Position numbers and translations under genes: made by a program | Assembly: GCF_030697375.1 (NCBI RefSeq) | Contig: NZ_JAUYQD010000034.1 | Span: 1 to 64,000, forward strand | DNA from: Rhodoferax sp. | Lineage (GTDB): Bacteria > Pseudomonadota > Gammaproteobacteria > Burkholderiales > Burkholderiaceae_C | Length of the DNA stretch: 64,000 nucleotides | Direction: 5' to 3' | Notes under the pieces: model-generated | Seen by the model: only the letters and a program-made list of their open reading frames with translations | What the model was told of the DNA's origin: nothing | Databases searched by the model: none | Shown: positions 8,168 to 16,597 of the stretch, in pieces | Numbering within the stretch: the stretch's first letter is position 1 | Layout: the number at the start of each line of letters is the position of its first letter

Positions 8168-8183
8168 TGTAGCATCACTGACA
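8168..8183 (+). promoter_or_regulatory. NifA upstream activator site 1 of nifB
   Basis: TGTAGCATCACTGACA fits the NifA consensus TGT-N10-ACA exactly and lies 85 bp upstream of the GG of the nifB sigma-54 promoter, a usual distance. Confidence 0.75.
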
Positions 8184-8222
8184 TCCCACTCCTAAAAACA
8201 CAGCCCCCACCACCCCTCCCCG

Positions 8223-8238
8223 TGTCCCACATCCGACA
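8223..8238 (+). promoter_or_regulatory. NifA upstream activator site 2 of nifB
   Basis: TGTCCCACATCCGACA is a second exact TGT-N10-ACA, only 30 bp from the -24 element, and 55 bp (about five helical turns) from site 1. So close to the promoter it may be an auxiliary site. Confidence 0.65.
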
Positions 8239-8267
8239 AAGCGAGGCCAAAAACAGCCGTTTCCGGG

Positions 8268-8283
8268 TGGCATGGATTTAGCT
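8268..8283 (+). promoter_or_regulatory. sigma-54 promoter of the nifB operon
   Basis: TGGCATGGATTTAGCT has GG and GC exactly 10 bp apart and a near-consensus -24 half (TGGCAT); the -12 half is TAGC in place of TTGC. Two NifA sites precede it and nifB starts 45 bp downstream. Confidence 0.72.
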
Positions 8284-8327
8284 ATTGAACCCTTATGCGG
8301 CCATTGTCGGACGCGAGAAGGGTTTCC

Positions 8328-9935
8328 ATGCACGCCAGCGCGCCAGCCGGGGCTATGCCCGCCAAGACCTACGTCAGCATTGGTCAAATCAAGCCTCTGG
8401 GCGCCAAACTCAATGTGCCGGAAACCGGTGGTGGTTGCGACACCCATGGCGCAGAGGGCAAGGCCAGTTGCGGCTCATCCGACGGCCCGGACGACATGCC
8501 CCAGGCGATCTGGGACAAGGTCAAAAACCACCCCTGCTATTCCGAAGAAGCCCACCACCACTTTGCCCGCATGCACGTGGCCGTGGCCCCGGCCTGCAAC
8601 ATCCAGTGCAACTACTGCTACCGCAAATACGACTGCAGCAACGAATCCCGCCCCGGCGTAGTCTCGCAAAAACTCACACCTGAGCAGGCCGTACGCAAGG
8701 TGGTTGCGGTGGCCAGCGAGATTCCGCAGATGACGGTGCTGGGCATTGCCGGCCCCGGTGATGCGCTGGCCAACCCGGCCAAGACCTTCCAAACGTTTCG
8801 CATGTTGCAGAGCCAAGCGCCCGACCTCAAGCTGTGTATCTCCACCAACGGTTTGGCGCTGCCGGACTATGTGGACGAAATCTGCAAATACAACGTGGAC
8901 CACGTCACCATCACCATCAACATGGTGGACCCCGCCGTGGGCGAAAAGATTTATCCCTGGATCTTCTGGCAGCACAAGCGCGTGACCGGTTATGAGGCCG
9001 CCAAGATCCTGCACGAACGCCAGATGCTGGGCCTGGAGATGCTCACCGCGCGCGGCGTGCTGACCAAGATCAACTCGGTGCTGATCCCCGGCGTCAACGA
9101 CGAGCACCTGATCGAGGTGAACCGAGAAGTCAAAAAACGCGGCGCCTTCCTGCACAACATCATGCCGCTGATCTCCGAGGCCGAGCACGGCACGGTGTTC
9201 GGCCTGACCGGTCAGCGTGGCCCCACCGCCTCGGAGCTGAAGGCCGTGCAAGACGCCTGCATGGGCGGCGCGAATTTGATGCGCCATTGCCGCCAGTGCC
9301 GCGCCGATGCGGTTGGTTTGCTGGGCGAAGACCGCAGCGAAGAATTCACGCTGGACAAGCTGGAACAGATGGCCGTGGTCTACGACCTGGACAAGCGCAA
9401 GCTCTACCAGGACAAGGTCGAAGTGGAGCGCCAGGCGCAGCAGGCGGCCAAGCAGCAAGCGCTGGCAGCGGCCAGTGCGGTTGAGGTGGCGGACGATCTG
9501 CAGGTCCTGGTAGCAGTGGCCACCAAGGGCGGTGGGCGCGTCAACGAACACTTTGGCCATGTGACCGAGTTCCAGGTGTTTGAAGTGTCCGCAGCCAAGG
9601 CTCTGTTCGTGGGCCACCGCCGGGTGGACCAGTATTGCCAGGGCGGCGCGGGCGACGACGAGCAATTGCCATCCGTAGTGCGCGCCATCAACGACTGCCA
9701 CGCCGTGCTGGTGGCCAAGATTGGCGCCTGCCCCAAGGACGAACTGACCGCCGCCGGTGTGGAGCCGGTGGACCAGTACGTGGGCGAATTCATTGAGAAA
9801 GCCGCGCTGGACTGGTTCAACGACTACCGCGCCCGCATTGCCAGTGGCGCGGTGGTGCACCAGGCCCGTGGCGATGCGCAGATCCGACAGGGCGCCTTCA
9901 CCAATCTTGCAGGCGGCGTTGCCCTGGCTGCCTAA
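8328..9935 (+). CDS. nifB: nitrogenase cofactor biosynthesis protein NifB
   Basis: The 535-residue radical SAM enzyme inserts the central carbide and fuses two [4Fe-4S] clusters into NifB-co, the 8Fe precursor of FeMo-co. The radical SAM cysteines are Cys90-x3-Cys94-x2-Cys97 (CNIQCNYC). After the SAM domain a C-terminal NifX/NafY-like domain starts near residue 395 (VLVAVATKGGGRVNEHFG), so this is the two-domain type. The ATG at 8328 has AGAAGG in front; an ATG at 8295 in the same frame is less likely. It heads the long operon that runs to the 2Fe-2S ferredoxin at 16196. Confidence 0.95.
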   Translation: MHASAPAGAMPAKTYVSIGQIKPLGAKLNVPETGGGCDTHGAEGKASCGSSDGPDDMPQAIWDKVKNHPCYSEEAHHHFARMHVAVAPACNIQCNYCYRKYDCSNESRPGVVSQKLTPEQAVRKVVAVASEIPQMTVLGIAGPGDALANPAKTFQTFRMLQSQAPDLKLCISTNGLALPDYVDEICKYNVDHVTITINMVDPAVGEKIYPWIFWQHKRVTGYEAAKILHERQMLGLEMLTARGVLTKINSVLIPGVNDEHLIEVNREVKKRGAFLHNIMPLISEAEHGTVFGLTGQRGPTASELKAVQDACMGGANLMRHCRQCRADAVGLLGEDRSEEFTLDKLEQMAVVYDLDKRKLYQDKVEVERQAQQAAKQQALAAASAVEVADDLQVLVAVATKGGGRVNEHFGHVTEFQVFEVSAAKALFVGHRRVDQYCQGGAGDDEQLPSVVRAINDCHAVLVAKIGACPKDELTAAGVEPVDQYVGEFIEKAALDWFNDYRARIASGAVVHQARGDAQIRQGAFTNLAGGVALAA

Positions 9936-9974: not shown

Positions 9975-10169
9975 ATGGCCCACAAAATCATCATTTCGAC
10001 CTGCACCGCATGCTCGGCCTGCGAGCCCGAATGCCCCAACGTCGCCATCCGCGAGAAGAACGGCACCTACGTCATCGACCCCAAAAAATGCACTGACTGC
10101 GATGGCCACTACGACACGCCCCAGTGCGTGGCCGTTTGCCCGGTGGACGGCTGCATCGTGAAGGTCTGA
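9975..10169 (+). CDS. fdxN: 2[4Fe-4S] ferredoxin FdxN
   Basis: The 64-residue ferredoxin binds two [4Fe-4S] clusters through Cys10-x2-Cys13-x2-Cys16-x3-Cys20 and Cys39-x2-Cys42-x8-Cys51-x3-Cys55. The widened x8 spacing in the second motif is typical of nif/Alvin-type ferredoxins. FdxN next to nifB is known to support NifB-co synthesis, probably as an electron donor to NifB. It has a good ribosome site (AGGAGAG) and sits 39 bp after nifB. Confidence 0.9.
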
Positions 10170-10174
10170 CCATC

Positions 10175-10582
10175 ATGTCGCCCAACGTCACCATCACCCC
10201 CGCCGCTGCCAAGTTCATCAACCGCATCGTGCGCTTCTCGGGCCTGCCCGCGGGCGCCGGTCTGCGCCTGGCGGTCACCCCGGGTGGCTGCTCCGGCTAC
10301 GCGTCCGAGTTCAGCGCCGAGGCCGCCCCCGCTGCGGGCGAGCAGTTGCTGGAGGTCGGTGGTGTGCGCCTGTTTCTGGGCGCGGAAAGCCGGCTGATGC
10401 TCAACGGCATCACCGTCGATTTTGTGGAGACTGCCACCACGTCGGGCCTTTCCTTTATCGACCCGAACAAGGAAGCCTGCGCCTGCAGCAGCGCCGAGAC
10501 GGCTCCCAAGGTGGGCGTGACCAAGATCGAGATCAGCGCCATTGGGCGTGGCCGACCGGCCGCTCCCGTGGTGGCGCACTGA
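10175..10582 (+). CDS. NifIscA-type Fe-S carrier
   Basis: The 135-residue HesB/IscA-fold protein has TPGGCSGYASEF and a C-terminal EACACSS segment, so the CGC motif of A-type carriers is Cys-Ala-Cys here. Homologues beside nifB are called NifIscA. It probably carries Fe or Fe-S clusters to NifB or other nif proteins (inference from family and position). The start ATG is 5 bp beyond the fdxN stop. The basic tail ending GRGRPAAPVVAH is longer than in housekeeping IscA. Confidence 0.83.
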   Translation: MSPNVTITPAAAKFINRIVRFSGLPAGAGLRLAVTPGGCSGYASEFSAEAAPAAGEQLLEVGGVRLFLGAESRLMLNGITVDFVETATTSGLSFIDPNKEACACSSAETAPKVGVTKIEISAIGRGRPAAPVVAH

Positions 10583-10598
10583 CACGGCGGACAGCACC

Positions 10599-11417
10599 AT
10601 GCCTGCGGACAGTCTCCGATTAGCCAATGACCTGCGTCCGCAGGACGAGATACCGGCGCAGCATTGGCAGGGTGGCCCCCTCCACTGCGGTGATTGTGGC
10701 TATGCCCACCTGCGCGCGCTGGGTGCGCGGCTGGGTTGTGAACCCGGACACGCCTGCATGCAGGACGTGTATGCCCGCCGCATTGACCGCTTCTTCCGTT
10801 GGCACCCCACGCTGAGTGACGAGCAACTGGCCCATTCCTATTTCGAAGTGCGCGCTATCGCCGCGCGCCGTGCCAGCCTGTTCCGCCTGCCCGCCCTGAT
10901 GGATGACCCGGACGAGACCGTGCGCCTGCAAGTGGCCCTGCGCCTGCCGCAGGCCCAACTGGTTCGCATGGCCAACGACCCGCACCGCGAGGTGCGTATC
11001 CGCGTGGTCCAGCGCCTGGCACCGGCCGAACTGGGTGCCTTGCGCAATGACCCTGACTACGGTGTGCGCGAACTGGTGGCACAACGCCTGGCTCTGGCCC
11101 TTTTGCCAACCATGGCCAACGACCCGGATCGGGCGGTGCGCCTGCGTGTGGCGCAGCGGCTGGAGATGCCCGCGCTCTTGCGCATGGCTGATGACACCGA
11201 GCCCGAAGTGCGGCGCGTGGTGGCAGAGCGCTTGCCGGTTGCACTGCTGTCCCGCCTGTCCCGCGACGTGGACTGGCGTGTGCGCTGGGAAGTGGCGCAG
11301 CGCGCCGATGCCGCCACGCTGGAAGCCATGCGCGATGACGAAGAGCCTGAAGTACGCCAGGCCGTGCGCACACGCCAGGCGGGCGACGTAAGTCCGATTG
11401 GAACGAACCATGGCTGA
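10599..11417 (+). CDS. LRV Fe-S / HEAT-like repeat protein
   Basis: The 272-residue protein begins with a four-cysteine cluster site (Cys30, Cys33, Cys47, Cys53) followed by about seven imperfect 24-residue repeats of the type DPDxxVRxxVAxRLxxxxLxxM. This matches the leucine-rich-variant (LRV) Fe-S protein first found in the Azotobacter nif region; its function there is unknown. It overlaps nifZ by 8 bp, so the two are translationally coupled. A protein-interaction role in nitrogenase maturation is plausible but unproven. Confidence 0.82.
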   Translation: MPADSLRLANDLRPQDEIPAQHWQGGPLHCGDCGYAHLRALGARLGCEPGHACMQDVYARRIDRFFRWHPTLSDEQLAHSYFEVRAIAARRASLFRLPALMDDPDETVRLQVALRLPQAQLVRMANDPHREVRIRVVQRLAPAELGALRNDPDYGVRELVAQRLALALLPTMANDPDRAVRLRVAQRLEMPALLRMADDTEPEVRRVVAERLPVALLSRLSRDVDWRVRWEVAQRADAATLEAMRDDEEPEVRQAVRTRQAGDVSPIGTNHG

Positions 11418-11772
11418 TATCAACCGCGACGATGCCGAGATCGAACTGGCCTACCCGCCGCGTTTTAGTTATGGCGAGCGGGTGATTGCCCGCTCCGTGG
11501 TGCGCAACGACGGCACCTACAACGGCCGCGACATCGGCGAGGTGCTGGTCAACAAGGGTGAGATTGGCTATGTGATCAACATCAACACCTTCTTGCAGCA
11601 GTTCTACATCTACGCCGTGGACTTTGTCGATTCCGGCCACCGCGTCGGCATGCGCGCCAAGGAGCTGTGCACGCTGGACAACCTGCCCGACGAGGTGCTG
11701 GAGCAACTGGGCGCCAAGGCCGCCGTCCTGCAGACGCTGGGGTCTGCCAAACCAACCGGAGAAGTCCTATGA
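11410..11772 (+). CDS. nifZ: nitrogenase maturation protein NifZ
   Basis: The 120-residue protein has the NifZ-type beta-rich fold signature FSYGERVIARSVVRNDGTY...GEVLVNKGEIGYV. NifZ helps form the second P-cluster of the MoFe protein. The ATG at 11410 overlaps the end of the lrv gene and the stop codon shares ATGA with the next gene, a NifZ-like paralogue. Confidence 0.88.
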   Translation: MADINRDDAEIELAYPPRFSYGERVIARSVVRNDGTYNGRDIGEVLVNKGEIGYVININTFLQQFYIYAVDFVDSGHRVGMRAKELCTLDNLPDEVLEQLGAKAAVLQTLGSAKPTGEVL

Positions 11773-12062
11773 ACGCCACCACCATGCCAGGCATCGAGCC
11801 GCGCGAACCGGCCTATGCCTGGGGCCAGCGCGTGATTGCGCTGGACGATCTGGTCAACGACGGCAGCTACCCGGATCGCCCGCTGGACGCACTGCTGGCC
11901 GCGCGCGGCTCGCTCGGCGAGGTGGTCAACATCGGCCACGCGCCCGAGTTGAACGAGCCGGTGTACCTGGTGCAGTTCGACGGTTGTGTGGTGGGTTGCC
12001 TGGAGATCGAACTGGTACCGGCGCCGCGCGGCCTGCTGCCCGAGACCGAGGAAGCGGTGTGA
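11769..12062 (+). CDS. second NifZ-like protein
   Basis: The 97-residue protein repeats the NifZ pattern (YAWGQRVIALDDLVNDGSYPDRP...GSLGEVVNIG) and is shorter, lacking much of the C-terminal part of NifZ. It starts inside the ATGA overlap with nifZ. A tandem nifZ pair suggests duplication with possible division of labour, for example one per P-cluster maturation step (inference). Confidence 0.78.
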   Translation: MNATTMPGIEPREPAYAWGQRVIALDDLVNDGSYPDRPLDALLAARGSLGEVVNIGHAPELNEPVYLVQFDGCVVGCLEIELVPAPRGLLPETEEAV

Positions 12063-12409
12063 ATAGGACCGCCACCACCATGGCCCCGTCCAGCGCCCAG
12101 GTGGTGGACCTGATGGTGCGCCGCATGGAGCGGGCCCTGCGTGAGCGCGTGCGCTACCGCTATGTGCATCCGCAGGTGCTGCGCGAGGCGAATAGCTACC
12201 GCATCCAGAGCCCCTGCTGTTCGCGCAATGTGGACCCGACCGGCGGCATGATCGACATCGCCTTGCTGGTGCCCCATGACGACGGCCACTGGTGCCTGTG
12301 TTCGCGTGACCACGCCAATAACACCTGGGAGCCACGGCACCAGGATGCATCACTGGACGTGTTGCTGGACCTGCTGTGTATCGATAGCGAACGCCAGTTC
12401 TGGGCCTGA
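12059..12409 (+). CDS. nif-operon conserved protein of unknown function
   Basis: The 116-residue soluble protein starts at a GTG overlapping the previous stop (GTGA), with AGGA 6 nt before it; an ATG at 12080 would shorten it by seven residues. It is arginine-rich at the start (RRMERALRERVRYRYVHP) and has SPCCSRNVDPTGGMIDIA and WCLCSRDH, giving Cys-Cys and Cys-x-Cys pairs that could bind metal. I do not recognise the family with confidence. Its coupled position between nifZ2 and nifS implies a role in nitrogenase assembly. Confidence 0.65.
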   Translation: MNRTATTMAPSSAQVVDLMVRRMERALRERVRYRYVHPQVLREANSYRIQSPCCSRNVDPTGGMIDIALLVPHDDGHWCLCSRDHANNTWEPRHQDASLDVLLDLLCIDSERQFWA

Positions 12410-12429: not shown

Positions 12430-13578
12430 ATGATTTACCTGGACCACAACGCCACCACGCCGCCCGCACCCGCGGTCATCGCGGCCATGTTGCCGGTGCT
12501 ATCGGGCGTGTGGGCCAACACCTCGTCCCAGCATGGTCCCGGGCAAGACGCCAAACGCGCCCTGGGCGCCGCGCGCGCCACCGTGGCCCGGGTGCTGGGC
12601 TGCAAGACTGTGGAAGTGGTCTTTACCAGTGGCGCGACCGAGGCCAACCACCTGGCGGTGCGGGGCCTGCTGGCGGCAGCCGCGCCTGGCCGCCGCCGCG
12701 TGGTGTTCAGCAGCGTGGAGCATGCGGGCCACTTGCGCCTGGCGCGCGCACTGGCGGATGCAGGCATCCCCGTGGACTTTATTCCGGTGCACTCCAACGG
12801 CACGCTGGACATGGCCGCCGCCGCCGCGCTGATCAAACCAGACGTCGCGCTGGTCTCGCTGATGGCCGCCAACAACGAGACCGGTGTGCTGATGCCGGTG
12901 GCCGAAGTGGCCGCACTCACCCATGCGGCGGGCGCCGTGCTGCATGTAGACGCCACGCAGTTCATCGGCAAGCAACCGTTCAATTTTTCCACCTGTGGCG
13001 CGGACGCGGTGTCCTTGTCGGCCCACAAGTTTCAAGGCCCCAAGGGCGTGGGCGCGCTGCTGCTGCGCCAGGGCGTGGCGCTGGTGCCGCAAACGCTGGG
13101 CAGCCAGGAGCGGGGCCGCCGGGGTGGCACCGAGAACCTGGCCGGCATTGTGGGCATGGCCGCCGCGCTGGACCTGTTGGGTGATGTCGCCACGCAGGCC
13201 ATCCGCCTGGCCACGCTGCGCGACGTGCTGGAGACCGGCCTGCAGCGGGCGCTGCCCGAAACCCATGTCTGGTGCCAAACCGTGCCACGCTTGCCGGGCA
13301 CCAGCTACCTGCGCTTTGGCCAGCTCTCGGTGGACGTGGTGTTGCAGCGCCTGGACCGACTGGGCGTGGCCGCCTCCAGCGGTGCGGCTTGCTCCTCGGG
13401 TGGCAGCGAGCCCTCGCATGTGCTGACCGCCATGGGCGTGCCCGCCGAGGAAGCGCTGGGGGCCGTGCGTTTTTCTTTGGGCGCCACTAGCACCCTGGCC
13501 GACGTGAACCATTTGCTGCAAATGCTGCCGCCGCTGCTCACGCCGCTATTGCATGAAGAACTACTCACCGCTCCTTAA
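12430..13578 (+). CDS. nifS: cysteine desulfurase NifS
   Basis: The 382-residue class I PLP desulfurase provides sulfur for nitrogenase clusters. PLP lysine lies in LSAHKFQGPKG near residue 202 and the catalytic cysteine in SSGAACSSGGSEPS near residue 321. It is about 20 residues shorter than the IscS of this window and differs clearly in sequence, so it is a true paralogue and not a recent copy. No nifU stands next to it, which is unusual, since nifU and nifS are normally adjacent. Confidence 0.9.
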   Translation: MIYLDHNATTPPAPAVIAAMLPVLSGVWANTSSQHGPGQDAKRALGAARATVARVLGCKTVEVVFTSGATEANHLAVRGLLAAAAPGRRRVVFSSVEHAGHLRLARALADAGIPVDFIPVHSNGTLDMAAAAALIKPDVALVSLMAANNETGVLMPVAEVAALTHAAGAVLHVDATQFIGKQPFNFSTCGADAVSLSAHKFQGPKGVGALLLRQGVALVPQTLGSQERGRRGGTENLAGIVGMAAALDLLGDVATQAIRLATLRDVLETGLQRALPETHVWCQTVPRLPGTSYLRFGQLSVDVVLQRLDRLGVAASSGAACSSGGSEPSHVLTAMGVPAEEALGAVRFSLGATSTLADVNHLLQMLPPLLTPLLHEELLTAP

Positions 13579-13619: not shown

Positions 13620-13847
13620 ATGAAACTGATGATCCGCAAAGACAGCAAAGGCGTGCTGACCGGCTATGTGCCCAAAAAAGACCTGGAGGAACCCATTGTT
13701 TCCATGGCCAATCCGGGGATGTGGGGCGGGCTGGTCACCTTGGCCAACGGCTGGCAGTTTGACTTGCCCGCCATGCCCGCCGACACCCCGCTGCCCATCA
13801 CCGTCGAAGCGCGTCGCCTCGCGCTGACGGAAGACGCGGGAGACTGA
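13620..13847 (+). CDS. nifT: NifT/FixU family protein
   Basis: The 75-residue protein starts MKLMIRKDSKGVLTGYVPKKDLEEPIV, typical of NifT/FixU, a small conserved nif protein of unknown role. AGGAG precedes the ATG. It lies 41 bp after nifS and one base before the next gene. Confidence 0.88.
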   Translation: MKLMIRKDSKGVLTGYVPKKDLEEPIVSMANPGMWGGLVTLANGWQFDLPAMPADTPLPITVEARRLALTEDAGD

Positions 13848-13848
13848 T

Positions 13849-14109
13849 ATGGCCATGACCGCTGACTACCTGCGTAGCGCCAGTGAAGTGATTGGCGCTG
13901 CGCCCTCGCTGCGCGACGCCGCTGCCATCTGGCGCGCACGCGATCCGGCGATCCGCGTGGTGCTGGTGGATGCGATGGACATGCGTGACGAAACACCGAC
14001 GCTGTTGCTGGGCCATAGACGCGTCTACCTGGCCACCTCCAACGGCCATTGCTGGTCCGTCACCGAGCAGCCCGATGAGGCGACGGCGCTGATTCTCACG
14101 CAGGACTAG
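13849..14109 (+). CDS. small nif-operon protein of unknown function
   Basis: The 86-residue acidic protein begins MAMTADYLRSASEVIGAAPSL and has no cysteine pairs, membrane segment or known motif that I can see. It follows nifT by one base and precedes the DegT-like gene by two, so it is surely co-translated with them. Function unknown. Confidence 0.65.
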   Translation: MAMTADYLRSASEVIGAAPSLRDAAAIWRARDPAIRVVLVDAMDMRDETPTLLLGHRRVYLATSNGHCWSVTEQPDEATALILTQD

Positions 14110-14111
14110 CC

Positions 14112-15272
14112 ATGGAAGTCGACGTCATTTCCCTGTTCGAACCCGAATGCGGTGCGCGCGAGATGCAGCTCGTCAGCGCCGTACTGCAGTCCGCCCGCTG
14201 GGGCGACGGGCCCATGGTTGAATCCTTCGAGCAGGCCTTTGCCGGCTGGGTCAGACGCAAGCACGCCGTGGCCGTGGGCAGTGGCACGCTGGGCACCTGG
14301 ATTGCCTTGCGCGCCATGGGCATAGGCCCGGGCGACGAGGTGATCTGCACCGCGCACACCTGGCACCAGGTGGCACAGGCCATCACGCTGGCGGGTGCCA
14401 CGCCGGTGTTTGCCGACATCAACTACTGGACCGGCAGCCTGAGCCCCGAGAAGGCCGCGCTCAAGATCACGCCCAAGACCCGCGCCATGCTGGCCGGCAA
14501 TACCAACGGTCACCCTGCCGCCTGGGAGCCATTGCGCGCGCTGGCGCAAGCCCATGGCTTGGTGCTGATCGAGGACAGTACCGAGGCATTGGGCTCGCGC
14601 TACAAGGGCCAGACCGTGGGCACGTTCGGCGATGTATCGGTGTTCGACTTCTCCGCACCGTCGGCGCTGTGCACCGGTGAAGGCGGCATGCTGGTTACCG
14701 ATGACGACGACCTGGTGCACGAGCTGCGCTACCTGCGCCAGCGTCGATTGGCGGATCGCTCCTCGGTGTCGGTGGGCGCACGCGTGCCGCTGCAGGCGGG
14801 CATGAGCGAACTCACTGCAGCGCTGGGCCTGGCGCAGTTGGCGGGGCTGGACGACCGCCTGGCGGCACGCAAGCAGGTGGTGGCCTGGTACCACGACAAC
14901 ATGCAGAGCTTTGAAGGCGTCAAGCCACCCTACATCGGCGAGGGGGTGGACGACATCCACTGGATGCTCTATGTGGTGCACCTGGGCAAACGTTTCTCGG
15001 GCAGTGCGCGCGCGCAGATGATCGACGACCTGCTGTCCTGCGGCATCGAGACCGTGGCCTACAGCCATCCGCTGCACCAGCAGTTCTATTACATGAATGC
15101 GGGGGACGCCATCGGCCAGCGCCGGGGGGTGCTGATCGACACCGACCGCATCGGCGACCGCGCGCTGGCGCTGCCCTTGCACACGCTGCTGGACGAGGGA
15201 CAGGTCCAGTACATCATCAAAACGCTCAAGGACACCGCGACCAACGTCGGTGCCGGTGCCGCCATTTACTAA
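14112..15272 (+). CDS. DegT/DnrJ/EryC1-type aminotransferase homologue lacking the PLP lysine
   Basis: The 386-residue protein has the fold signatures of sugar aminotransferases: IEDSTEALGSRYKG (Asp155 position kept), VGTFGDVSVFDFS and CTGEGGMLVTDDD. The Schiff-base lysine, normally seven residues before the EGG triad, is Ser184 here (FSAPSALCTGEGG). It is therefore probably not a transaminase and may act as a binding protein or in a PLP-independent reaction. It is tightly packed between small nif genes and the SIR2-like gene, implying a nif-linked role. Sequence and frame look intact. Confidence 0.8.
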   Translation: MEVDVISLFEPECGAREMQLVSAVLQSARWGDGPMVESFEQAFAGWVRRKHAVAVGSGTLGTWIALRAMGIGPGDEVICTAHTWHQVAQAITLAGATPVFADINYWTGSLSPEKAALKITPKTRAMLAGNTNGHPAAWEPLRALAQAHGLVLIEDSTEALGSRYKGQTVGTFGDVSVFDFSAPSALCTGEGGMLVTDDDDLVHELRYLRQRRLADRSSVSVGARVPLQAGMSELTAALGLAQLAGLDDRLAARKQVVAWYHDNMQSFEGVKPPYIGEGVDDIHWMLYVVHLGKRFSGSARAQMIDDLLSCGIETVAYSHPLHQQFYYMNAGDAIGQRRGVLIDTDRIGDRALALPLHTLLDEGQVQYIIKTLKDTATNVGAGAAIY

Positions 15273-15281
15273 GGAAAAACC

Positions 15282-16136
15282 ATGACCGATTTGATTCAAA
15301 CCATTGCCCAGCGTCTTGACACGGGCGCGGTCATTCCCTACCTGGGGCCGGACATGTTGTCCCTGTGCGCTGACGTCGCGGTGCCGGCCACACCCCTGGC
15401 GCTGGCAGAGAGCATGACCGCCAAGGTCAGCGTTCCGCACAAGATCCGAAAGCGCCTGACCCAGGCCGCGCAGTTCATCGAGAACTTCAAGCACCGCAAG
15501 TCGGTGGTGCATTTGATGAACGAGGCCTTTGCCAACTCCCCCGCAGCATCGCCATTGCACCTGGCCCTGGCCCGCAGCAACGCGGGCTTGTGGGTGGACA
15601 CCTGGTACGACGACACCATGGCCGCCGCACTGGCACAGGTGGGGCCCAAGGGCAGTTGGGCGCAGACCCAGGGCCTGTCGCAGTCCGAACACTTTGGCCA
15701 CTGGACCGGTGACTACGCCGACGACGGCAGCCTGTTGCCCGAGCTGCCAAAGGACCTGGCACGTCTGCTCTACAAGCCCTGGGGCAGCCACAGCCCGGCA
15801 GGCAACTACCTGGTGTCCGACAGCGACTACGTGGAGGTGCTGACCGAGATCGACATCCAGACGCCGATTCCCGCCGCCGTGCAGGCCTGGCGCACGGGGC
15901 GCAACTTCCTGTTCCTGGGCTGCCGCTTTGACGACCAGCTCACCCGCTGCTTTGCGCGCCAGATCATGAAGCGCTCCAGCGACCAGCACTGGGCCGTGCT
16001 GCCCGAGGAACCCACCCGCATGGAGGCGCGCTTTCTGCAGGAGCAAAACATCACCCGCATTGCGATGCCGCTGGCGCAGTTTGCGCAGAGCTTTACGTCA
16101 ACCCTGCAAGGCCTGCAGGCGGCCATTGCGGCCTGA
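15282..16136 (+). CDS. SIR2-like domain protein in the nif operon
   Basis: The 284-residue protein starts with a nucleotide-binding-type segment (GAVIPYLGPDML) resembling the GAGxS loop of SIR2-like proteins and has a later FLFLGCRFDDQL segment typical of that fold. The canonical catalytic histidine context is not evident. It follows the DegT-like gene by 9 bp with a good ribosome site. Possible roles include NAD-dependent modification or sensing, attractive beside draT/draG but unproven. Family assignment is moderate. Confidence 0.65.
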   Translation: MTDLIQTIAQRLDTGAVIPYLGPDMLSLCADVAVPATPLALAESMTAKVSVPHKIRKRLTQAAQFIENFKHRKSVVHLMNEAFANSPAASPLHLALARSNAGLWVDTWYDDTMAAALAQVGPKGSWAQTQGLSQSEHFGHWTGDYADDGSLLPELPKDLARLLYKPWGSHSPAGNYLVSDSDYVEVLTEIDIQTPIPAAVQAWRTGRNFLFLGCRFDDQLTRCFARQIMKRSSDQHWAVLPEEPTRMEARFLQEQNITRIAMPLAQFAQSFTSTLQGLQAAIAA

Positions 16137-16195
16137 CCTTCTTTTTGAGTTTTCCGTTTTACCAACCACCTGACGGGCTTGAGCCCGCTTTCACC

Positions 16196-16483
16196 ATGAC
16201 CACTCTGACCGTTCTCCCCTCTGGCAAATCCTACGACGTCGCAGCGGGCACCAGCCTGCTCAAGGCCCTGCAATCCGTGGGCGAGGCCATCATCAGCAAA
16301 TGCGGTGGCGAAGCCCGTTGCGACTCCTGCCACGTGGCTGTGCCGGTGGGCAAAAAGAGCCTGTCCAAAATCCAGCGCGTCGAGAACGAGAAGCTCGACG
16401 GCATTGTTGGCATCGGCTCCAACTCGCGCCTGGCCTGCCAGGCCGTCCTGGGCGAGGAAGCCGTCACCGTGCAACTGCTCTGA
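16196..16483 (+). CDS. [2Fe-2S] ferredoxin
   Basis: The 95-residue ferredoxin has Cys-x5-Cys-x2-Cys (CGGEARCDSC) and a fourth Cys in RLACQA, the adrenodoxin/ISC-like layout. It is the last gene of the nifB operon, 59 bp past the SIR2-like gene, and is followed by a bidirectional terminator. I chose the ATG at 16196; the frame extends 17 residues upstream through sequence unlike the family. It may donate electrons to cofactor assembly or protect nitrogenase (inference; Shethna-type protein II is another 2Fe-2S ferredoxin known to do so). Confidence 0.82.
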   Translation: MTTLTVLPSGKSYDVAAGTSLLKALQSVGEAIISKCGGEARCDSCHVAVPVGKKSLSKIQRVENEKLDGIVGIGSNSRLACQAVLGEEAVTVQLL

Positions 16484-16508
16484 CCACCCGTCCACGCCAT
16501 GGCTGAAC

Positions 16509-16546
16509 AAAACGCGATGCGTCCACATTTTTTGGCATCGCGTTTT
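16509..16546. terminator. bidirectional intrinsic terminator
   Basis: AAAACGCGATGC and GCATCGCGTTTT form a perfect 12-bp inverted repeat around a 14-nt loop, with A and T tracts on either side. It sits between the convergent ferredoxin and nifQ genes, where a two-way terminator is expected. Confidence 0.8.
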
Positions 16547-16597
16547 GGACACGCAAATTCAACTGCCAAGTGCATCCGTTGGTAATTTAAGGGGGCC

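Follow-up and report, generated by a model that had tools for sequence, protein, structure and literature searches.

What is a protein with the fold of a sugar aminotransferase doing among the nitrogen fixation (nif) genes behind nifB? The question is raised by a 64,000-nucleotide stretch of Rhodoferax sp. DNA (contig NZ_JAUYQD010000034.1, positions 1 to 64,000; hereafter the window), where a 386-amino-acid protein encoded at 14112..15272 on the + strand belongs by family and fold to the DegT/DnrJ/EryC1/StrS aminotransferases (DegT_DnrJ_EryC1, 297.8 bits against a cut-off of 19.8). Nine nucleotides separate its stop codon from the start of a gene for a 284-amino-acid SIR2-like protein (15282..16136, +), and a 2Fe-2S ferredoxin gene follows, from an ATG at 16196 to 16483 (+). 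An earlier, sequence-only reading had pointed to this block of three open reading frames, which is present as it described. We find that the catalytic lysine and the phosphate-binding serine of the active site are missing throughout the nif-linked family members compared, and we suggest, with evenly divided confidence, that the DegT-like protein is a pseudo-aminotransferase kept as a nitrogenase accessory, which would take part in iron-sulfur (Fe-S) cluster or cofactor maturation by serving as a scaffold or binding a ligand, without catalysis.

Residue 184 of the window protein is serine, where GDP-perosamine synthase (3bn1) has its Schiff-base lysine in the alignment; in 3dr4, titled a K186A mutant, an alanine occupies the aligned site. 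All four lysine-bearing controls, namely three further DegT proteins encoded in this genome and, from outside the family, the match that ranks next (in G351, where no nif neighbour was detected), have lysine at this position, confirming the earlier placement of Ser184 at the Schiff-base site. Among 104 nif-linked family members, the residue is Ser in 82, Phe in 9, Gly in 5, Leu in 4, Cys in 2, and Gln and Ala in one each, with lysine in none (0/104) and histidine likewise in none (0/104). An earlier tally on 86 members gave the same pattern, and a Methylococcus plasmid copy, which lies outside the 104, also has serine at the lysine site. Judged from these alignments, the loss of the lysine is old and common to the family, yet serine is not fixed (22/104 differ), a point that the sequence-only reading had proposed to check. 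Since the position varies and accepts even phenylalanine, a special serine chemistry is unlikely, and Ser184 was rejected as a special nucleophile. The expectation that the protein should not transaminate is supported.

The 104 sequences comprise that of the window, those of the 80 top-ranking loci from a scan across 84,980 genomes, and 23 from further genomes. The scan gave 492 pattern-matching stretches encoding a DegT relative (E up to 1e-3), where one gene may give several stretches and lysine-free membership is not implied for all. By their titles, the 80 loci are mostly from Comamonadaceae, Paraburkholderia and other beta-proteobacteria; many are close kin, and counts from them are not independent events. 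A lysine-bearing match (L187) was treated as a control outside the family count, two sequences have part of their end cut off where the contig stops (L045, L101), a third has an incomplete start (L103), and for one broken gene the longest open piece was taken (L184).

The rest of the former pyridoxal 5'-phosphate (PLP) pocket is altered in a similarly uniform manner. The serine of the phosphate cup is replaced by Asp179 in 104/104 members (Ser in 4/4 controls) and the asparagine contributed by the partner subunit by Gln228 in 100/104 (Asn in 3/4 controls), such that the PLP phosphate cup is not preserved, and the histidine of the HxxG motif is Asn130 in 103 of the 104, the remaining sequence having a gap. 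Asp155 is kept in 104/104. The roles of these residues, with the serine and asparagine contacting the phosphate and Asp155 the ring nitrogen of PLP, we take to be those of the wider family. Pro183 and Lys271 are invariant among the 104. Lys271 was considered as a candidate for a lysine elsewhere in the active site; in the perosamine synthase alignment a second lysine, besides the catalytic one, is located near the Lys271 point. In total, 34 positions hold a residue that at least 95% of the family share and that none of the four controls has, and among these Asn130, Ser156, Asp179, Pro183 and Gln228 map by alignment to the former PLP pocket. Thus, the fold motifs around Ser184, which had been described as kept, are so only in part: the phosphate-binding serine and other pocket positions have changed. 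A pocket that is both remodelled and conserved is better matched by a new function than by decay.

A further feature that is new relative to the sugar aminotransferases is a conserved C-terminal tail. Where a member's sequence reaches the C terminus, it closes with NxGAGxxIY (NVGAGAAIY in the window protein), in some cases with one additional leucine. The protein is therefore distinct from GDP-perosamine synthase (3bn1), ArnB (1mdo) and their kin in the lysine, the phosphate serine, the HxxG histidine and the partner-subunit asparagine, as well as in its added tail and its location in nif operons. In five pairs of close relatives, nonsynonymous divergence (dN) is 0.013-0.067 and synonymous divergence (dS) 0.47-0.88, giving dN/dS of about 0.03-0.1, and identity across distant genomes ranges from 49 to 97%. 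On these grounds, the DegT-like protein has the appearance of a pseudoenzyme on which selection is strong.

The gene also has recurrent neighbours. A nif marker gene is present in 80/80 fetched DegT loci and, counting for each neighbour only loci whose contig extends far enough, DegT is preceded by nifT in 77/77, by a gene for an 86-amino-acid protein in 76/77, by a second nifZ in 71/73 and by a DUF3024 gene in 70/73, and is followed by SIR2 within 1.5 kb in 72/74 (broken copies counted) and by the 2Fe-2S ferredoxin in 60/67. In 18 loci of another class, assigned by kinship labels and presumably alphaproteobacterial, the second nifZ (18/18), DUF3024 (17/18) and ferredoxin (18/18) again accompany DegT, and the 86-amino-acid gene is found in 2/18. 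The usual order there is nifS-nifT-SIR2, nifB, fdxN, iscA, lrv, nifZ, nifZ, DUF3024, DegT, ferredoxin; SIR2 occurs in 17/18 of these loci and in 16 of the 17 adjoins nifT, away from DegT. Methylococcus sp. EFPC2 carries, in this order, DegT, ferredoxin, a small gene, SIR2 and BolA.

SIR2 and DegT can also be found without each other. Four SIR2-bearing nifB loci without DegT (L157-L160) have no match to the second nifZ, DUF3024 or ferredoxin either, two DegT-bearing Paraburkholderia genomes give no SIR2 match, and SIR2 is found in 74 plasmid records (E up to 1e-5; 55 of them Rhizobium) against 4 for DegT (E up to 1e-70). Within the phylum, a SIR2 match is present in 17/398 genomes, all 17 of them among the 43/396 with NifB above cut-off, and absent from the remaining 26 NifB-positive genomes; DegT at E <1e-100 is present in 6/396, the window's included, all six being NifB- and SIR2-positive. 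An obligate DegT-SIR2 pair was rejected on this evidence, each occurring apart in plasmids, loci and genomes although they are near-constant neighbours in the 80 fetched loci. Rather than the single DegT-SIR2-ferredoxin unit of the sequence-only reading, we see two accessory units, one of DegT, tandem nifZ, DUF3024 and, mostly, the ferredoxin, and the other of SIR2 and nifT.

We suggest that the PLP lysine and phosphate cup of a sugar-aminotransferase fold were lost ahead of the spread of the known family, and that the resulting protein, which would no longer bind PLP, was retained as a nitrogenase accessory that does without catalysis or at any rate without PLP. The reshaped pocket, with Asp155, Asp179 and Asn130 kept, would hold a ligand and the conserved tail would dock a partner, whereas the downstream ferredoxin is a possible redox partner, and the tandem NifZ, DUF3024, IscA, LRV and NifS-like proteins would act alongside. 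A more specific proposal, which we advance tentatively and consider somewhat improbable as a whole, is that the PLP-free DegT-fold protein and the ferredoxin constitute an unrecognised maturation factor of many proteobacterial diazotrophs, with the tail serving to hand over a ligand or cluster to NifB, NifZ or NifDK, and that these clusters carry a second pseudoenzyme, the SIR2-fold protein with a tryptophan in its nicotinamide adenine dinucleotide (NAD) pocket.

Several observations weigh against an accessory role in maturation. The role is suggested by sequence, selection and linkage. The structure model of the DegT-like protein is of low confidence in the C-terminal part and tail, and with Asp155 kept in every member some cofactor-like ligand may still bind. 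It is the spacing of the genes that suggests a single transcript from nifB to the ferredoxin. The ferredoxin was not matched near DegT in 7/67 loci, and one locus (G114, on a 19.6-kb contig) has DegT and SIR2 with no ferredoxin, second nifZ or DUF3024. Lastly, the link of DegT to free-living N2 fixation is weak. In a survey of 30 genomes, 13 of them DegT-positive (of 24 then known) and 17 DegT-negative, nifV is above cut-off in 12/13 DegT-positive genomes, the other (G641) having two adjacent pieces below cut-off, and also in 10/17 DegT-negative ones. Six DegT-negative genomes have a close SIR2, and nifV is above cut-off in two of these and not in four; G035, a congener of the DegT-positive G200, carries nifB, with no SIR2 or DegT match and no nifV above cut-off. 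Several of the DegT-bearing Paraburkholderia from the scan belong to species known for legume symbiosis, which speaks against a simple free-living rule. In favour of the link is a published list: in the available portion of PMC3899966, BRADO5411 (DegT) and BRADO5410 (2Fe-2S ferredoxin) are listed in a section on nod-independent bradyrhizobia, close to genes given as common to Azorhizobium and lacking in three rhizobia without free-living N2 fixation.

The strongest alternative to an accessory role in maturation is that the same pocket serves as a repurposed ligand sensor or performs a new, non-PLP chemistry, binding a small molecule (e.g. a nucleotide sugar, organic acid or nucleotide) and regulating or supplying nitrogen fixation. 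In its favour, the 34 family-specific positions, of which several map by alignment to the former PLP pocket, describe a site that is conserved and not eroded, with only residue 184 free to vary; however, the Pfam scan detected no additional output domain in the DegT-like protein, and its neighbours are mostly nif and Fe-S assembly genes rather than regulators. We regard this possibility as unlikely.

Less probable still is a lysine-free enzyme that uses pyridoxamine 5'-phosphate (PMP), as do ColD or E1 (CDP-4-keto-6-deoxyglucose 3-dehydrase), with electrons supplied by the nearby 2Fe-2S ferredoxin. ColD and E1 have the same fold and carry a histidine in place of the lysine, and E1 uses PMP and electrons from an Fe-S cluster, the cysteines of which are a trait of E1 and not of ColD. 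The DegT-like family likewise lacks the lysine and retains Asp155, and the ferredoxin gene directly adjoins DegT in the loci of the other class and in Methylococcus. In contrast to ColD and E1, no family member has histidine at the lysine site and phenylalanine is tolerated there, and the changes of the phosphate serine to aspartate and of the partner asparagine mostly to glutamine should weaken the binding of PMP as well. Nor is there an E1-type cluster, as the only cysteines of the protein (Cys13, Cys79, Cys187 and Cys310) are scattered and none is invariant among six orthologues. Membership of the E1-like iron-sulfur dehydratases was rejected for want of both the histidine and a conserved cysteine set.

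The sequence-only reading had hinted at an NAD-dependent control of nitrogenase by DegT and the SIR2-like protein, linked to DraT/DraG, which we consider very improbable. The proximity that prompted this proposal is real: nifQ, draG and draT lie past the ferredoxin on the opposite strand, with draG and draT approximately 2-4 kb from DegT and SIR2, and SIR2 follows DegT closely both here and in nearly all fetched loci. However, the association does not extend to other genomes, where DraG is above cut-off in 3/13 DegT-positive versus 7/17 DegT-negative genomes and was matched in 7/58 of the fetched loci that continue for 9 kb or more downstream, and SIR2 and DegT are found separately. The SIR2-like protein itself also argues against such a role. 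It has the SIR2 fold (SIR2_2, 75.3 bits, cut-off 24.5), with Trp108 aligned to the asparagine in the TTNYD motif of ThsA (6lhx), an asparagine that we take to be catalytic. Position 108 is tryptophan in 81/81 close members in a first count and in 99/100 sequences in a second, corresponding to 99/99 close members, the lone asparagine belonging to a distant relative (L161); distant relatives have asparagine in 5/5. At position 167, the site of the catalytic histidine, the window protein has tryptophan, and histidine is present in 23/100 sequences and in 0/5 distant relatives. Six broken, partial or misread sequences were left out of these counts (L044, L056, L072, L079, L089, L094). With tryptophan in place of the catalytic asparagine, NAD hydrolysis is unlikely, and the SIR2-like protein looks catalytically dead. 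We propose instead that it belongs with nifT, as a second nif accessory pseudoenzyme independent of DegT.

Finally, a decaying, functionless remnant of a sugar aminotransferase gene, for which the absent lysine might speak, has practically no probability and is refuted by the selection pattern, given the low dN/dS in all five pairs, the identity across distant genomes and the conserved pocket and tail.

The DegT gene is located within the nifB gene run, all genes of which, from nifB through the 2Fe-2S ferredoxin, are on the + strand, behind motifs of a putative NifA/sigma-54-type promoter (8168..8283, +). These are two TGT-N10-ACA sites of the NifA type, found by motif search before nifB (8168-8183 and 8223-8238, +), and a -24/-12-like site with one mismatch (8268-8283, +). 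Across the window, motifs of this type are as frequent as chance predicts and do not exceed their number in shuffles, and only their position and arrangement upstream of nifB suggests a promoter. The operon had been described as NifA-controlled; the gene run does stand behind these putative NifA-type sites. nifB (8295..9935, +; TIGR01290, 671 bits, above cut-off) is given as its longest frame, a later Met being a possible true start. It is followed, all on the + strand, by an fdxN-type 4Fe-4S ferredoxin (9975..10169; Pfam Fer4 families), an IscA/SufA-type Fe-S biosynthesis protein (10175..10582; PF01521, 38 bits), an LRV protein with a 4Fe-4S domain (10599..11417; PF01816, PF05484), two nifZ copies (11410..11772 and 11769..12062; PF04319, 105 and 81.8 bits), a DUF3024 protein (12080..12409; PF11225, 63.4 bits), a NifS-like class V cysteine desulfurase (12430..13578; PF00266, and TIGR03402 at 378 bits, below the cut-off of 530.75) and nifT (13620..13847; TIGR02934, 100.6 bits, above cut-off). 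The 86-amino-acid protein directly before DegT (13849..14109, +) has no Pfam or NCBIfam match; the gene at the corresponding position in Bradyrhizobium sp. BWA-3-5, a peanut-nodule isolate, is annotated DUF6129. The ferredoxin that closes the run is Isc-ferredoxin-like (PF00111 Fer2, 34.6 bits, cut-off 21; Cys 36, 42, 45 and 81), with 3ah7 as its closest PDB chain. A strong hairpin with a 13-bp stem (16508..16547, +; z -5.65) is the likely operon terminator; its long loop exceeds the limit of 8 in the terminator scan, which did not list it, and it appeared in a separate analysis.

Variants of this arrangement were seen elsewhere. The DegT gene of BWA-3-5 (L189, 8001-8969) is an unannotated, apparently broken copy with nifV annotated nearby, the PLSDB tables giving no pseudogenes. 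Three Paraburkholderia loci (L097-L099) have a shorter nifB operon with DegT and no NifS-like or DUF3024 match; L098 and L099 are the two DegT-bearing genomes without SIR2. The nif plasmid of Methylococcus sp. EFPC2 has, in the BolA-family gene after SIR2 (L188, 11644-11913), a further Fe-S trafficking gene in the run. In three other Paraburkholderia, tuberum STM678, sp. BL25I1N1 and kirstenboschensis, SIR2 is apparently broken or shortened (L072, 11188-11652; L079, 11175-11963; L094, 11175-11981) and DegT is full length; two of these species are known as legume symbionts. A distant SIR2-like group (L021-L025, L161-L164; approximately 23-28% identity) occurs in NifB-positive genomes, most near nif genes, and retains the catalytic asparagine and not the histidine. 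PST_1325, located beside nifH in Pseudomonas stutzeri (PMC11332353, in the portion available), may belong to this group.

The SIR2-like protein differs from the SIR2-domain NADases ThsA, DSR2 and KomC by the Trp-for-Asn exchange, a non-conserved histidine, its single domain and its nif linkage. Anti-phage defence was rejected as its role, since PADLOC gave only a weak ThsA match (13.9 bits, E 0.0039) and the nif linkage argues against it. Within the portions available of the papers cited here, comparable SIR2 genes have been reported in nif clusters: Rhodobacter capsulatus Rcc03262 ends the operon nifB1-rcc03265-nifZT-rcc03262 and was detected in wild-type cells and escaped detection in the absence of NifA (PMC6925177), and Zymomonas mobilis ZMO1821, a predicted deacetylase, is raised under N2 fixation (PMC8600466). 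The Trp-for-Asn exchange would argue against a deacetylase, provided that ZMO1821, likened here by its description, is of the same kind. Further nif SIR2 genes are listed in PMC8594446, PMC9412634 and PMC11332353 (the PST_1325 row), and in the accessible parts of these five papers no experimental function is assigned to any.

For DegT, the accessible part of PMC3899966 describes in Bradyrhizobium ORS278 a DegT-family gene (BRADO5411) and a 2Fe-2S ferredoxin (BRADO5410) near NifZ and LRV, listed under nitrogen fixation, which by their description are very probably the same pair. There they are named only putative aminotransferase and ferredoxin, with no mention of the lysine or of a function. 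A literature search of open-licence papers, as far as their available text extends, returned nothing on the function or lysine loss of the DegT gene and no mutant data on it; neither DegT nor SIR2 is mentioned in the main text of an Azoarcus transposon sequencing paper (PMC9769520). In the literature found, a gene answering this description thus appears in print as a putative aminotransferase, and the view of the sequence-only reading that the function is undescribed is supported as far as the available text extends.

The set of genes required for an active nitrogenase in a given host is still incomplete, which limits the transfer of nitrogen fixation. The DegT-like gene, which many proteobacterial diazotrophs carry in their nifB operon and which encodes a conserved pseudoenzyme that is probably misannotated, is a direct and testable candidate for this set, and both it and its SIR2-like neighbour may bear misleading names, the one as an aminotransferase and the other as a SIR2 deacetylase or NADase.

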